From positions 62,001 to 126,000 of the forward strand of contig NZ_JANKBZ010000012.1 in assembly GCF_024623785.1 (NCBI RefSeq): a DNA stretch of 64,000 nt, written 5' to 3'. The stretch comes from Archangium lipolyticum (GTDB lineage: Bacteria > Myxococcota > Myxococcia > Myxococcales > Myxococcaceae). Below, piece by piece: positions 35,342-40,996 of the stretch (position 1 is its first letter; every line of letters starts with the position of its first letter). Below the pieces are notes generated by a model. The model was not told the origin of the DNA. It did no database searches and saw only the letters and a program-made list of their open reading frames with translations. Both the position numbers and the translations under genes were made by a program.

Positions 35342-37024
<1,683 letters not shown>

Positions 37025-37093
37025 CTAACATGCCCCCCTGACATTCGAACCAGGCTCCCAAAACCTGAGCAAACATGAAAAACAGACAAGACC

Positions 37094-37122
37094 TTGACCC
37101 CTGATAAGTTGGACCTTAAAAC
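37094..37122 (+). promoter_or_regulatory. Sigma70-type promoter of the repeat-peptide operon
   Basis: TTGACC (37094-37099), a 17-bp spacer and TAAAAC (37117-37122). The segment is distinctly A/T-rich against its surroundings. Expected transcription start is near 37129, giving a leader of about 100 nt before the peptide ATG at 37232. Confidence 0.65.
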
Positions 37123-37137
37123 AAACATACGGTCGCG

Positions 37138-37179
37138 CAGCCGGGCCGTGGAGCACCCGAGCACATCCGGGTGCGGCTG
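37138..37179 (+). other. Stem-loop in the 5' leader of the repeat-peptide mRNA
   Basis: GCACCCG (37153-37159) pairs with CGGGTGC (37168-37174), and CAGCC (37138-37142) can close the structure with GGCTG (37175-37179). It lies between the predicted promoter and the ribosome site. It may stabilise the mRNA or regulate it; unproven. Confidence 0.4.
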
Positions 37180-37231
37180 TGGGAGTATGTATTTGTATGC
37201 ATCATCCACCCGTTCAGTCTCGGAGGTTCGA

Positions 37232-37426
37232 ATGAATAGCCTGATTCGTCAGCTCGCCCAGGATCATCTCTGGAATCAGTGGGTCGCGGCCAACTCTGCC
37301 GGTGCGCCGATCGTCGAGGCCGGTTGCATCTCCGGGCCGGCTGTCGCCGTGAAGGCCGGCTGCATCTCCAGGGGCGCTGCCCCCGTGAAGGCCGGCTGCA
37401 TCTCCAAGACCGGCTGTATCAGCTGA
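37232..37426 (+). CDS. Repeat-core peptide, candidate RiPP precursor
   Basis: A 64-residue peptide. GGAGG stands 6 bases before the ATG. Residues 1-28 look like a helical leader (SLIRQLAQDHLWNQWV). Residues 29-64 hold four copies of a [EK]-[AT]-G-C-I-S motif starting at 29, 41, 53 and 59, with spacers GPAVAV and RGAAPV after the first two. The repeats are thus spaced 12, 12 and 6 residues, and the last one ends exactly at the stop. The only cysteines are the four in the motifs. This matches leader plus multi-core logic of ribosomal natural products. It heads an operon with an adenylating enzyme, a GRDP-like protein and an exporter. No similarity to a named family is known to me. Confidence 0.7.
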   Translation: MNSLIRQLAQDHLWNQWVAANSAGAPIVEAGCISGPAVAVKAGCISRGAAPVKAGCISKTGCIS

Positions 37427-37441
37427 TAGGGTAGTCCGGGT

Positions 37442-37494
37442 CGCGAGCGAGGGGGGAATGCGCCTTGTTCCCGTGCCTTCCCTCCTCGCTCGCG
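37442..37494 (+). terminator. Large hairpin between precursor and enzyme genes (attenuator-like)
   Basis: CGCGAGCGAGGGGGG (37442-37456) pairs with CCCTCCTCGCTCGCG (37480-37494): 15 base pairs including one G-U, with a 23-nt loop. There is no U-run. In operons with a small abundant product first, such a stem limits read-through and protects the upstream mRNA, giving excess peptide over enzymes. That role is inferred from position. Confidence 0.65.
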
Positions 37495-37566
37495 CCCGCT
37501 CCGATGGGTTGGTGCAACGCTTTTCATGGGTCCGTTCAACCGTCTCCCCTCCCCCCGACTCCACCG

Positions 37567-38838
37567 ATGGACACCCGAAGACAGACGCTTGTTGAGATGA
37601 TCGAGCAGGTCAGGGACATTCCCATCTACCAGCAATCGCTCGAGCAGGGGTTCTTCCCGATCCTGGAGAAGCCAGAGATCGCCAGGGGGTTCCCGGACAA
37701 TTGGATGACCCCGAGGCTCGCTGAAGCGTTGAAGGTGGGTGAGGCGGAGTTCGTGCTCTCGACCGGAACCAATCACGCGCGGATGCAGATCATCCGTCCC
37801 CCCTTCTTCCTGTTGAAGTCCTACTACCAGTTGTGGAGCGAGCATCCCGACATCGCCGTCACCTGGCAGCAGAACTGTCAGCGCGTCTCGATCACCACCG
37901 TGCTGGCGACCGAGCACGTGGCGCGGCTCAACGCGAGGAAGCGCGGCGCCGAGGCGCAGGCCCTTCCGAGCCTCGAGGAGCGCCGGCTCGACTCGCGCAC
38001 GCTCTATCTCAACCTGAGGCTCGACCCGGCGCTTTGGGAGCGCGGTGACGTGGAGCGCATGCTCGATGAAATGACCGCTGTCCAGCAGGCGCATCCGCTG
38101 GGCGCGTATCACCTCGACTGCGACAGCTACCACCTCGCGCATCTGGTGCGGAAGGCCCTGGACTGGGACGAATGGCGGCGCTTTCCGAAGCCGGCCAGCA
38201 TCATCCACGCCTACGAGTACACGCCGAGGAACGTGCGCCGGTTCCTGCAACGGCATTTCGAGTGCCCGATCATCGACCTGTTTGGCAGCACCGAGCTGGG
38301 GTATCTGTATTACAACGATCGTCACGGACGATACTGGCCCTACCTCGACAAGATGCACCTGGAGCTGATCCCCGTCGAAAAGGGCAGCACGATCTACAGC
38401 ATCATCGTCTCGAGCTTGCGCAACCCCTACATGCCGCTGATTCGCTATCGCTCCGGTGATTGTGCCGAGACACTCGATGGCTCCCCCGACCCGCTTCGGA
38501 TTCGCCGGTTCTGCGGGCGGGAGAGGGAGCTGCTGCGGCTCGAGCGTGGAGGCGTGATCTCCCAGGCGGATCTCGACGACTGGATCGCTGACGCCACACC
38601 GTCCATCTTCCTCTATCAACTCCACCTGAAGGCGCCGCGGCAGGCCCGACTGCTGTACACCACCTTCGACAACAGGCCCGTCGATCCAACCGTGGCGCGC
38701 GAGCTGCGGCACAGGAGCCTGGAGGTGGCCGGGCTCGAATGCGAGCTCGAGCATCGCGAGCACATCGCGATCGGCAAGTCCGGGAAGTACGCCTGGCTGG
38801 TGCAGGACTCCGAAATGACAGGACAAGGTGTGTCATGA
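37567..38838 (+). CDS. PaaK/CoF-synthetase-like adenylate-forming enzyme
   Basis: A 423-residue ANL-superfamily enzyme of the phenylacetate-CoA ligase/F390-synthetase-related branch. Motifs: FVLSTGTNHARMQII (62-76, the ATP loop), DLFGSTELGYLYY (237-249), RYRSGD (293-298) and GRERELLRL (317-325). A Lys in GKSGK (403-408 region) may be the C-terminal catalytic Lys. Such enzymes activate a carboxylate with ATP; the acid could be a small aryl or acyl acid or a peptide carboxyl. ATG 37567 begins the conserved part but lacks a clear Shine-Dalgarno. Its stop overlaps the next ATG. Confidence 0.78.
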   Translation: MDTRRQTLVEMIEQVRDIPIYQQSLEQGFFPILEKPEIARGFPDNWMTPRLAEALKVGEAEFVLSTGTNHARMQIIRPPFFLLKSYYQLWSEHPDIAVTWQQNCQRVSITTVLATEHVARLNARKRGAEAQALPSLEERRLDSRTLYLNLRLDPALWERGDVERMLDEMTAVQQAHPLGAYHLDCDSYHLAHLVRKALDWDEWRRFPKPASIIHAYEYTPRNVRRFLQRHFECPIIDLFGSTELGYLYYNDRHGRYWPYLDKMHLELIPVEKGSTIYSIIVSSLRNPYMPLIRYRSGDCAETLDGSPDPLRIRRFCGRERELLRLERGGVISQADLDDWIADATPSIFLYQLHLKAPRQARLLYTTFDNRPVDPTVARELRHRSLEVAGLECELEHREHIAIGKSGKYAWLVQDSEMTGQGVS

Positions 38839-39380
38839 ACTCCCATCAACCCAAGGTGACAACCGCCGCGCTGAGGGCTTTGCTCGATGAAGCGTTCTTC
38901 TCCGGCGTGGTGCGGCACTTCGTGCGGACCACCGGCGAGGAGCCCACGTACGTCGAGCGTCAGGTCATCGAATGCCTGAAGTATCTGTACCTGATCTCCC
39001 GCTACCCGGAGCGGCTGGCCGGGCTGTTCCTGCCCGTGGAGCAGGCGATCGATGAGGTCTGGCACTATTTGATTCTGCAGACCCGAGAGTATCGGCAGCT
39101 GTGCGAGGAGCGCCTGCCGGGCCGCTTCTTCATCCATCACCGCAGCCTGCCGTACGAGGACTACCAGCAGAGCCAGCCCGGCCGGGAGCAGATGCTCGAG
39201 GAAGCACTGCGCTGGCTGCCGCTGTATCGCGAGGAGTTCGGTCCCTTCGACGAGGGCGCACTCCCCCACTGGACGATGGTCCGCTTCCTCCACCAGCAGT
39301 TGGGCCTTTCCCTGGGCACCATCGCGGCGCTCGAAGCGGAAGGCCCGGCCGCACAATCCGATACGGAGCACGTCCGTTGA
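38835..39380 (+). CDS. GRDP-like (glycine-rich domain protein-like) helical protein
   Basis: A 181-residue protein. The central segment AIDEVWHYLILQTREYRQLC, followed by EERLPGRFFIHH, matches the DevWHxhiLxTxxYxxxC...GrxxxH pattern of the GRDP-like family (PF07173), whose biochemical role is unknown. The His/Asp/Cys set could bind metal. Starts at ATGA overlapping the adenylating enzyme stop and ends at TTGA overlapping the transporter start, so it is made in step with both. Its conserved place in the operon suggests a role in maturation or carrier function. Confidence 0.6.
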   Translation: MNSHQPKVTTAALRALLDEAFFSGVVRHFVRTTGEEPTYVERQVIECLKYLYLISRYPERLAGLFLPVEQAIDEVWHYLILQTREYRQLCEERLPGRFFIHHRSLPYEDYQQSQPGREQMLEEALRWLPLYREEFGPFDEGALPHWTMVRFLHQQLGLSLGTIAALEAEGPAAQSDTEHVR

Positions 39381-40591
39381 GCCTTCGAGCTGCGCGGGCC
39401 GTGCCCGCCACGTCCATCAACACGCTGGTCCTTTTGCTGTGTCAGGTCGTAGGGCTCGCCAGCGCGGTCTCGATCCAATTCGTTGGCAGCCTGGTGGGTA
39501 AGTGGCTCGCGGTGGATATGCGGCTCGCGACCCTCCCGGTTGCCGTGATGGTGCTGTCCTCGGCGCTGGGCACCTGGCCCGCCAGCCAGCTGATGCGTCA
39601 TTTCGGACGCAAACGCTGCTTCATCGCCTCGGCGCTGCTGTCCGCCTGCTGCCTGGCACTCGCGGCACGAGCGGTGCACCGGTTCGACTTCTGGCTGTTC
39701 TGCGCAGCCGTTTTCGGCGTGGGCCTGCACGGCTCCTTCGTGCAACAGTATCGCTTTGCAATCCTCGAAGGACAGGAGAGCAGCAGGGCCCCGCGCCTGT
39801 TGACCCTGATCCAACTCGCGAGCGCCGTTGGCATCTTTCCCGGCATCTCACTCTTCGGCCTGCTGGCGGGAAGGACGTCCGATTACGTGCCTCGGGTCCT
39901 GCTGGTCCTGGCGATGCTCCAGGTGATGGCCGCGCTCTCACTTCTGCTGTACCGGCAGCAAAGCGCGGTCGTCGCCGAGGTTTCCGCCACACCCGACACA
40001 AGCGTTCGCGCGTTGTATTGGCCGATGGTGGTCATGGGCGCCGGAGCCTTCCTGGTGATGAGCCTGCTGATGGTGCCAACGCCCTTGCAGATGTGTGGCT
40101 TCGAGCAATACATGCTTCAAGAGGCGAGCTGGGTGATACAGGTGCACCTGCTGAGCATGTACCTGCCCTCGCTGTCGATCAGTGTCATTCTGAGAAGAGT
40201 GTCGATCGCACGGTTGCAGGGGTTGGGGCTGCTCTTCCTGCTCGTGGGGTTTCTGAGCAGTTGGATTCCAGGACTTGGAGGGCACATGGTCGGGCTGGCG
40301 CTGGTCGGCGTGGGGTGGTGCTTTGTGTTCGTGACCGCGACGACCCTGGTGGCGCGCAGCCGCTCGGGCTCGGAGCGTTTTCGTGCACAGGGTATCAATG
40401 ACCTGTGCGTGTTTGCCGCCAGCGGCGTGGCCTCGCTGACGTCCGGAGCGCTCCTCTCGGTGCTGGGGTGGAACGGTTTGCTGAGCCTCGGCTCGTTGCT
40501 GGTTCTGTTCTTGATGGCACTGGCCTGGTATGTCCACCGCGGACCAACCGAACCCGAGGCGTCCCGCAGCGACCTGACCGCCGCACGGTAG
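39377..40591 (+). CDS. MFS transporter, probable exporter of the operon product
   Basis: A 404-residue major-facilitator protein with about 12 hydrophobic segments. The loop 2-3 signature is degenerate (LMRHFGRKRCFIASAL, resembling G-x-x-x-D/R-R-x-G-R-K/R). The start codon is TTG at 39377, overlapping the preceding stop as TTGA; CGGAG lies 8 bases upstream. The next in-frame start (GTG 39401) would remove only eight polar residues. Substrate is inferred from operon context. Confidence 0.75.
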   Translation: MSLRAARAVPATSINTLVLLLCQVVGLASAVSIQFVGSLVGKWLAVDMRLATLPVAVMVLSSALGTWPASQLMRHFGRKRCFIASALLSACCLALAARAVHRFDFWLFCAAVFGVGLHGSFVQQYRFAILEGQESSRAPRLLTLIQLASAVGIFPGISLFGLLAGRTSDYVPRVLLVLAMLQVMAALSLLLYRQQSAVVAEVSATPDTSVRALYWPMVVMGAGAFLVMSLLMVPTPLQMCGFEQYMLQEASWVIQVHLLSMYLPSLSISVILRRVSIARLQGLGLLFLLVGFLSSWIPGLGGHMVGLALVGVGWCFVFVTATTLVARSRSGSERFRAQGINDLCVFAASGVASLTSGALLSVLGWNGLLSLGSLLVLFLMALAWYVHRGPTEPEASRSDLTAAR

Positions 40592-40717: not shown

Positions 40718-40996
40718 ATGCGCATGAGGAGCACGTTGGGCGGGCTGTTGGCGGCAGGGCTGTTGTCCGTGGGCTGTGGCGGCATGATGCCGGAGGAGCA
40801 GCCGGAGCAGAGCCTCCCTCGAGCCGAGCAGGAGCTCACCCCGAGCTGCCCCGCTGGTTACACGTTGGGCGCCTACTGGGACTGCGCCCAGATTTGCGGC
40901 GCCGGGTGGGGCAACTTCGTTCGCTACTACTGCACCAACGGCGCGGACTACTACGAAGCAGGAACCGGCAGTCATAGCTGTGGAGACTGTTACTGA
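40718..40996 (+). CDS. Small cysteine-rich lipoprotein
   Basis: A 92-residue exported protein. Signal peptide with lipobox LSVGC (Cys20). After a short acidic linker the mature part has six cysteines (44, 56, 60, 72, 88, 91), enough for three disulfides, in an aromatic/Gly-rich context: SCPAGYTLGAYWDC and YYCTNGADYYEAGTG. Small lipoproteins with this SCPAGYT opening are frequent in myxobacteria and uncharacterised. It has its own promoter after the operon terminator, so a link to the peptide operon is not indicated. Confidence 0.7.
   Translation: MRMRSTLGGLLAAGLLSVGCGGMMPEEQPEQSLPRAEQELTPSCPAGYTLGAYWDCAQICGAGWGNFVRYYCTNGADYYEAGTGSHSCGDCY

Follow-up and report, generated by a model that had tools for sequence, protein, structure and literature searches.

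Cyanobactins and ustiloxins are produced from multi-core RiPP precursors. Core repeats are likewise described for graspetide precursors in the part of PMC8939145 devoted to them, and the same source, in its account of pheganomycin (a system also named in a passage of PMC7794033), presents PGM1 as the enzyme that joins an acid to a ribosomal core peptide. On the side of acyl-adenylate chemistry, the PaaK-family protein NatL2 forms an ester from its acyl-adenylate and thereby uses an acceptor other than CoA, as given in the corresponding section of PMC7204872.

The locus analysed here belongs to a 12.6 Mb genome and lies in a stretch of 64,000 nucleotides, referred to as the window; its features are collected in Table 1. 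A short peptide gene with four GCIS motifs is followed on the same strand by genes for a PaaK-family ligase, a small protein and a transporter. To our knowledge, none of the PaaK-family AMP-ligases of natural-product pathways (NatL2, AjiA1, ClxA) acts beside a ribosomal peptide, and we know of no RiPP class with such a combination of precursor, ligase and small-protein genes. The peptide gene is almost certainly a functional precursor, real and linked to the ligase. With a rough probability of 0.55, it is a multi-core RiPP-type precursor whose GCIS units are acylated via the ligase, cut out and exported. Taken part by part, it is probable that the precursor is the source of a released and exported peptide product, while acylation of the GCIS unit by the ligase is a proposition that we place a little short of even.

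Table 1. Features of the GCIS peptide cassette in the window.
Feature	Position	Strand	Remarks
Baeyer-Villiger monooxygenase (BVMO), accessory	35342..36982	-	divergent from the operon; phenylacetone monooxygenase 1w4x, E 1.8e-225
Promoter-like pair TTGACC - 16 nt - TTAAAA	37094..37121	+	putative, by eye
Ribosome binding site GGAGG	37222..37226	+	GGAGG or near also in the relatives inspected
Precursor peptide gene	37232-37426	+	64 residues and stop; translation MNSLIRQLAQDHLWNQWVAANSAGAPIVEAGCISGPAVAVKAGCISRGAAPVKAGCISKTGCIS
Putative leader region, residues 1-28	37232..37315	+	L4, W14, W17 and N21 identical in 65/65 peptides
Motif copy 1, EAGCIS	37316..37333	+	starts at E29
Motif copy 2, KAGCIS	37352..37369	+	starts at K41
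Motif copy 3, KAGCIS	37388..37405	+	starts at K53
Motif copy 4, KTGCIS	37406..37423	+	starts at K59; followed by the stop codon, 37424-37426
Strong predicted hairpin between precursor and ligase genes	37442..37494	+	folding compared with shuffles
PaaK-family (ANL) AMP-ligase, 423 aa	37567..38838	+	fold match and motifs STGT, GSTE, RYRSGD, CGR, SGKYAW
Small conserved protein, 181 aa	38835..39380	+	start overlaps the ligase stop; match at 66/66 loci
MFS transporter	39323..40591, exact start not fixed	+	MFS_1, E 9.1e-11

Translation of the frame agrees with what a sequence-only reading of this DNA had reported: 64 residues with four [EK][AT]GCIS motifs at residues 29, 41, 53 and 59, a spacing of 12, 12 and 6, a last copy that abuts the stop codon, and all four cysteines inside the motifs. 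The strong ribosome site claimed there corresponds to the GGAGG shortly 5' of the ATG. The copies do use partly different Gly-Cys codons (GGT TGC, GGC TGC, GGC TGC and GGC TGT), and across the family the motif serine is encoded 108 times by AGY and 102 times by TCN; this even split indicates that the protein motif, and not the DNA, is the conserved level, as had been proposed. In the upstream regions, inspected by eye, the TTGACC/TTAAAA pair recurs at every locus of the window's family but L040 (6 of 7), and the Streptomycetaceae relatives display TTGACA ... TTTAC. The untranslated region 5' of the peptide (window 37127-37231, + strand) is conserved in part among the loci of the window's family and those of Sorangium. 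An RNA fold conserved in this region was considered and rejected, as only 2 of 23 predicted pairs exhibit double-sided change, with a covariation term of +0.19; Rfam gives no match on window positions 36000-39000 or on three loci. The peptide itself has no match in Pfam or NCBIfam, and viral relatives were discarded, none of 23 pattern matches in viral contigs being related.

Among 96 genomes of the window's family, the peptide search retrieves 7, the window's own included, at E 1e-14 or better, the rest lying at E 7e-4 or worse. Peptide, ligase (E below 1e-280) and small-protein (E below 1e-100) searches converge on these same 7 genomes, with 5 further weak matches for the ligase (E 4e-53 to 4e-21) and three for the small protein. 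A ligase scan of named genomes yields seven loci, in Sorangium cellulosum (3), Streptomyces (2), Amycolatopsis coloradensis and Saccharopolyspora hirsuta, all with a GCIS peptide immediately 5' of the ligase. Searching the families of three reference loci (L064, L066 and L061) with a 14-row ligase alignment gives positives in 46 of 394 Streptomycetaceae, 7 of 249 Pseudonocardiaceae and 5 of 108 Polyangiaceae genomes; 394 genomes drawn from the Streptomyces class contain only 7 loci, all already in the set. The resulting collection of 66 loci consists of the 7 of the window's family, the 46 of Streptomycetaceae, one extra Streptomyces locus (L065), the 7 of Pseudonocardiaceae and the 5 of Polyangiaceae. 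These loci were chosen by ligase, so that its presence is given by construction, and the independent tests are the peptide-first and small-protein-first searches. In 200 Streptomycetaceae genomes both arrive at the same 14, which are ligase-positive too; one weak peptide match occurs in G209 (E 5e-4), and 41 further genomes of that family have weak small-protein matches. No ligase match is found in plasmids, and the ligases of L056-L060 from the window's class (27-31% identical) were rejected as family members, having neither a GCIS peptide by pattern nor a small-protein match at E<=0.01. An unrooted tree of the ligases from 65 loci joins the window's family with Polyangiaceae (100/100) and places both in a group with Pseudonocardiaceae (100/99), separate from Streptomycetaceae, a topology with which transfer between phyla would be consistent.

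The sequence-only reading had proposed looking for the peptide at homologous loci in other genomes, and a homologous repeat peptide is present at 65 of the 66, the window included, in soil bacteria of four families and two phyla; this makes a chance origin of the GCIS frame untenable. A homologous locus without the repeat peptide, named there as the refuting case, does not occur among those 65, and the one that exists, L158 (G506:C60), is a cassette whose three core genes have all decayed together, a natural knock-out: the peptide has shrunk to MEQLIKAGCIS, the ligase contains an internal stop, and a deletion fuses the ligase into the small-protein gene. L158 is excluded from the peptide counts and from the ligase tree.

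The conserved N-terminal segment of the peptides reads LIxxxAQDxxWxxWVAANS, and the total length ranges from 38 to 76 residues. The 65 peptides contain 211 motif copies, 2 to 7 per peptide, in which G and C are present in 211 copies each, Ile in 206 (Val in 5) and Ser in 210 (Cys in 1, the odd GCIC copy of L118). Two residues before the G, Lys is found in 199 copies, Asp in 10, Glu in 1 and Arg in 1. The minimal unit that the copies share is GCIS, in nearly every case preceded by a Lys. The position immediately before the G is far more variable (A 87, S 40, D 32, T 19, N 18, E 9, Q 4, G 1, Y 1); in Streptomycetaceae, 37 of the 46 first copies have D or N here and 45 of the 46 last copies have A, S or T, and the residue can vary among the copies within one precursor. 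The suggestion that several identical products are cut from one chain may hold for the near-invariant GCIS but not for the residue preceding it. Linkers between a motif and the next Lys-x span 0 to 6 residues. All seven Pseudonocardiaceae have two copies, Streptomycetaceae between two and four (three in 43/46), the window's family four or five and Polyangiaceae three to seven. An exact GCIS C-terminus is observed in 58 of 65 peptides, the exceptions being 6 of the 7 Pseudonocardiaceae and L122.

The neighbour described as PaaK-like from sequence is, as judged from its AlphaFold2 model (mean pLDDT 73.9), of the PaaK/ANL fold. The model matches PaaK1 2y27 (VIA, Z 18.5 over 300 residues, rmsd 4.1 A, 11% identity) and 4rvn (Foldseek, E 3.1e-12), and its fold matches also include AjiA1, NatL2 and ClxA, with 12-17% identity in the match lists. 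The adenylation motifs and the C-terminal Lys are invariant in the 14-row alignment; over the 66 loci, the strict patterns are found 65 times for STGT and GSTE, 63 for CGR, 62 for R[YF]RSGD and 57 for SGKYAW. Sequence comparison with the PDB gives no match at E<=0.01, and Pfam AMP-binding matches 7 of 14 members (best E 0.069). The best NCBIfam match is the DVU_1553-family AMP-dependent CoA ligase (E 6.6e-10, 38.6 bits against a cut-off of 300), and the NCBIfam PaaK model scores 14.6 bits against a cut-off of 646.3, so that by model the ligase is not that equivalog. Two points here count against the acylation reading: the best NCBIfam match, under its cut-off, is to a CoA ligase, and on such sequence grounds the enzyme could be one without bearing on peptide chemistry; and the link to PaaK comes from a fold comparison at 11% identity with a model of pLDDT 73.9.

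In the reading that we prefer, an acylated multi-core precursor, we infer modification, cleavage and product as follows. The conserved N-terminal segment would act as a leader that recruits the ligase and the small protein. The ligase would convert a carboxylic acid into an acyl-adenylate, and the acyl group would be taken up by a nucleophile within each GCIS unit or adjacent to it, either the Cys thiol or an amino end freed by cleavage, with the 181-aa protein serving as binding partner or second enzyme. Cutting of the array at Lys-x before each GCIS could then give several copies of a GCIS-derived conjugate, for export by the MFS protein; in some lineages the BVMO may oxidise the acyl part, and the hairpin 3' of the precursor gene may ensure more precursor than enzyme. 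This reading is supported by the same leader at 65 of 66 loci, by motifs that are near-invariant while linkers and copy number vary, by peptide, ligase and small-protein searches that reach the same genomes, and by the joint decay of the three genes in L158. The PaaK fold of the ligase, the hairpin after the precursor gene, the MFS gene directly downstream in 43 of 66 loci and the precedent of NatL2 as a PaaK-family ester-forming enzyme (PMC7204872, in part) argue in the same direction. Two elements of a RiPP locus are found, an encoded precursor with putative leader and core (conserved N-terminal segment and 2-7 copies in 65 peptides) and an adjoining candidate modifying enzyme whose genomes are reached by peptide-first searches. 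RiPP antibiotics do not usually keep a core unchanged in every letter over two phyla, and this identity counts against the reading. The multi-core RiPP-type assignment of the sequence-only reading stands as far as leader, repeats, 2-7 copies, stem-loop, fixed gene pair and usual transporter are concerned, while the processing is something we infer.

The release step has its own difficulty, since no protease is recognised by Pfam scan among 16 recurrent neighbour families, 5 of which have no Pfam family; a protease of the host may do the cutting. LanB/C/M, YcaO, radical SAM and ATP-grasp enzymes are likewise absent by Pfam among nine window neighbours and these 16 families, the scan over the 66 loci covering recurrent neighbours. 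The type I BVMO fingerprint FxGxxxHxxxW[PD] is present in the window protein, and its strict pattern in 14 of 18 BVMO neighbours. A BVMO is located near 18 of 66 loci, in several orientations, namely at 7/7 of the window's family, 5/5 Polyangiaceae, 3/7 Pseudonocardiaceae and 3/47 Streptomycetaceae.

These neighbours are also relevant to an alternative in which the peptide is not the product but a thiol carrier, made on the ribosome and taking the place of an acyl carrier protein: each Cys would receive an acid from the ligase in thioester linkage, the bound acyl group would be a substrate of the BVMO or other enzymes, and a small molecule would be released. Such a role would suit an array without a recognised protease and with a BVMO related to phenylacetone monooxygenase, and PaaK-type enzymes are generally known to pass acyl groups to a thiol. 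The GC pair retained in 211 of 211 copies over two phyla, amid a variable pre-G residue and variable linkers, has the pattern of an attachment site, although this invariance is compatible with core and carrier alike. A carrier has no obvious need for the Lys two residues before the motif (199/211) or for a last motif that ends at the stop codon (58/65 peptides), Ile and Ser after the Cys are nearly as fixed as the Cys itself, and 2 to 7 copies would fit product dosage equally. Cores are favoured over carrier sites by the nearly constant Lys and by a last copy that ends exactly at the C-terminus; we consider the carrier, the main rival, unlikely, and a multi-core precursor remains the preferred reading.

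Export is suggested by an MFS match in 50 of 66 stretches, the other 16 including some ended early by contig ends. The MFS gene is on the same strand directly after the small-protein gene in 43 of 66 loci (7/7 in the window's family, 5/5 in Polyangiaceae, 1/7 in Pseudonocardiaceae and 30/47 in Streptomycetaceae); it is on the opposite strand in 5 Pseudonocardiaceae, and elsewhere and distant in L117 and L167. The 16 loci without a match, together with the 7 in which the gene is elsewhere or on the other strand, count against export by this protein. Directly 3' of the MFS gene, at window 40718-40996 (+ strand), lies a small Cys-containing lipoprotein-like frame. None of the six further cassettes in the window's family contains a match to it; look-alikes, identified by eye, are found near weak small-protein paralogues in L195 and L196.

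In Streptomycetaceae, a SulP transporter (probe matching Pfam Sulfate_transp, E 3.4e-63) accompanies 34 of 47 loci, against 0 of 19 others, and a carbonic anhydrase, named by eye, accompanies 31 of 47, with one weak 33% match elsewhere (L147). Being nearly confined to this family, the two were rejected as part of the cassette core. Mapped on the ligase tree, SulP appears in several orientations. Twenty cassette genomes have 2 to 7 SulP matches each, some partial; they were hand-picked, nearly all with SulP beside the cassette, and do not form an independent sample. The SulP/carbonic anhydrase link looks like one above background, with counts inflated by shared ancestry. Neither BVMO, SulP nor carbonic anhydrase is present at 15 of 66 loci, which counts against the acylated-product reading. 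Other recurrent neighbours, a molybdate-type ABC transporter, an amino acid permease, regulators and TerD, occur in Streptomycetaceae subsets only. A formyltransferase/enoyl-CoA hydratase fusion-like protein is located on the opposite strand about -2400 from the ligase at 10 Streptomycetaceae loci, among them L111, L112, L117, L122, L164 and L167. We read these subset neighbours, the fusion-like protein included, as local synteny.

The transporter, the invariant Cys, and the SulP and carbonic anhydrase genes near many Streptomycetaceae loci, which might mean an anion or zinc context, could also be accommodated by a secreted metal-binding or thiol peptide of metallophore-like character, in which Cys and Ser bind the metal and the ligase adds a capping acid. 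Each motif, however, has a single isolated Cys, with no CxxC or CxC except in the odd copy of L118, and we regard such a function as quite improbable.

The small protein matches at every locus, one of the 66 matches being a truncated remnant, and the cassette provides a first setting for it. The label 'GRDP-like' that it had been given has no Pfam support: a Pfam comparison of 14 members yields no family, and GRDP/DUF1399, which we take to be the model behind the label, has no hit at E<=10. Its structural model (pLDDT 74.8) finds nothing in the PDB at E<=0.001, the best Foldseek value being E 1.8. Two candidate relatives were rejected, DrdV chains on account of a best VIA Z of 4.0, and iota-carbonic anhydrase as a short and not credible stretch of PDB sequence similarity (E 0.2). 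By eye, the protein falls within a broad family sharing a W-H..IL.T..Y...C motif, with weak paralogues in many Streptomycetaceae. Several of these paralogues (L197-L205) have a Cys/Gly-rich tail, for example CSHTPKPGGCGPINPGGCASHC. One Streptomycetaceae genome, G211, encodes a good homologue (E 2.8e-33) without a ligase match, which counts against the acylated multi-core reading. At this locus (L194, G211:C1:5566000-5584000, reverse strand) the homologue follows a 54-residue frame ending ...FARNCWSAAS, and the neighbours seen by eye are PLP-type enzymes, an FAD monooxygenase and an ABC transporter, with no PaaK-type ligase match. L194 is possibly a second peptide system with the same small protein.

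The peptide stop and the ligase start are separated by 140 nt, and the start of the small-protein gene overlaps the ligase stop. The intergenic fold of the window has a z of -3.61, with 0 of 200 dinucleotide shuffles as good; ten loci give z values from -2.3 to -6.0 with dinucleotide shuffles, and with mononucleotide shuffles z is below -2 in 44 of 65 loci compared with 3 of 65 control stretches. RiPP precursor genes are often followed by such a hairpin, which keeps the output of precursor above that of enzyme. A short frame directly 5' of an operon, followed by a strong hairpin, is also what a regulatory leader peptide would look like, its Cys (or Ser) codons tuning the ligase operon in the manner of an amino-acid attenuator. 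The family does not fit this arrangement: purifying selection maintains leader and Ile as protein sequence while codons are chosen freely, AGY and TCN for Ser among them, the Cys codons are scattered without forming a run, and the peptides are 38-76 residues long. Attenuation is accordingly very improbable.

The peptide frame is under purifying selection, as demonstrated by a pN/pS of 0.283 in the sense frame, the remaining five frames ranging from 0.54 to 2.06. These values derive from 243 colinear pairs out of 276 same-length within-family pairs, those with identity outside 70-97% or shifted motifs having been dropped; the 243 are related sequences and hence not independent. With a slightly looser detection rule, 7 of 2131 control windows (930 nt, taken elsewhere in the same loci) are positive, none with at least two GC[IV]S. 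Long antisense frames span the arrays, yet with this pN/pS contrast and with start and leader conserved in 65 peptides, a chance frame over a DNA tandem repeat, or an antisense frame as the real gene, can practically be dismissed.

The architecture points to a RiPP-like family that is apparently undescribed. Full-text searches of a literature that takes in few subscription journals give, among the papers listed, no description of a GCIS peptide or of a cassette of ribosomal peptide and PaaK/AMP-ligase, in agreement with the initial statement that no family with a GCIS core is known. The strict filter of decRiPPter, in the portion of PMC7794033 that sets it out, asks for a peptidase and a regulator; with no peptidase gene recognised in it, the cassette may have been overlooked by filters of this kind, although the decRiPPter tables may still include it. 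Approximately 1 in 9 sampled Streptomycetaceae genomes has the cassette (46/394, one decayed), in a family heavily mined for antibiotics. It is doubtful, but of wider consequence, that the GCIS units are acceptors, through the Cys thiol or a freed amino end, for an ANL-type AMP-ligase acting on a ribosomal scaffold spread from Actinomycetota to Myxococcota; in its boldest form this would be a ribosomal multi-site thiol carrier standing in for acyl carrier proteins. If true, the acyl-adenylate chemistry of the NRPS and CoA-ligase world would be joined to a ribosomal scaffold, opening a new route to conjugated peptides. Three genes and a transporter make a compact system in which to test directly whether ribosomal peptide and ANL-type AMP-ligase are linked.

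Compared with known systems, the accessory BVMO is closely related to phenylacetone monooxygenase 1w4x, and it is near 18/66 loci only. The cassette ligase has its fold and a natural-product setting in common with NatL2, AjiA1 and ClxA, which are known from small aromatic acids (3-HAA and the like), unlike the ribosomal-peptide setting here. Pheganomycin, as described, resembles the locus in that a ligase is joined to a ribosomal core peptide, acid-to-core joining being what is proposed here; PGM1, in the text of PMC8939145 concerned with it, is an ATP-grasp enzyme, whereas the cassette ligase is predicted to have the PaaK/ANL fold (Z 18.5 with 2y27). With the multi-core RiPPs, namely cyanobactins, ustiloxins and graspetides, the locus shares a leader, several core copies, short spacers and a changing copy number; none of their class-defining enzymes turns up in the cassette, whose putative core is a near-fixed tetrapeptide across two phyla.
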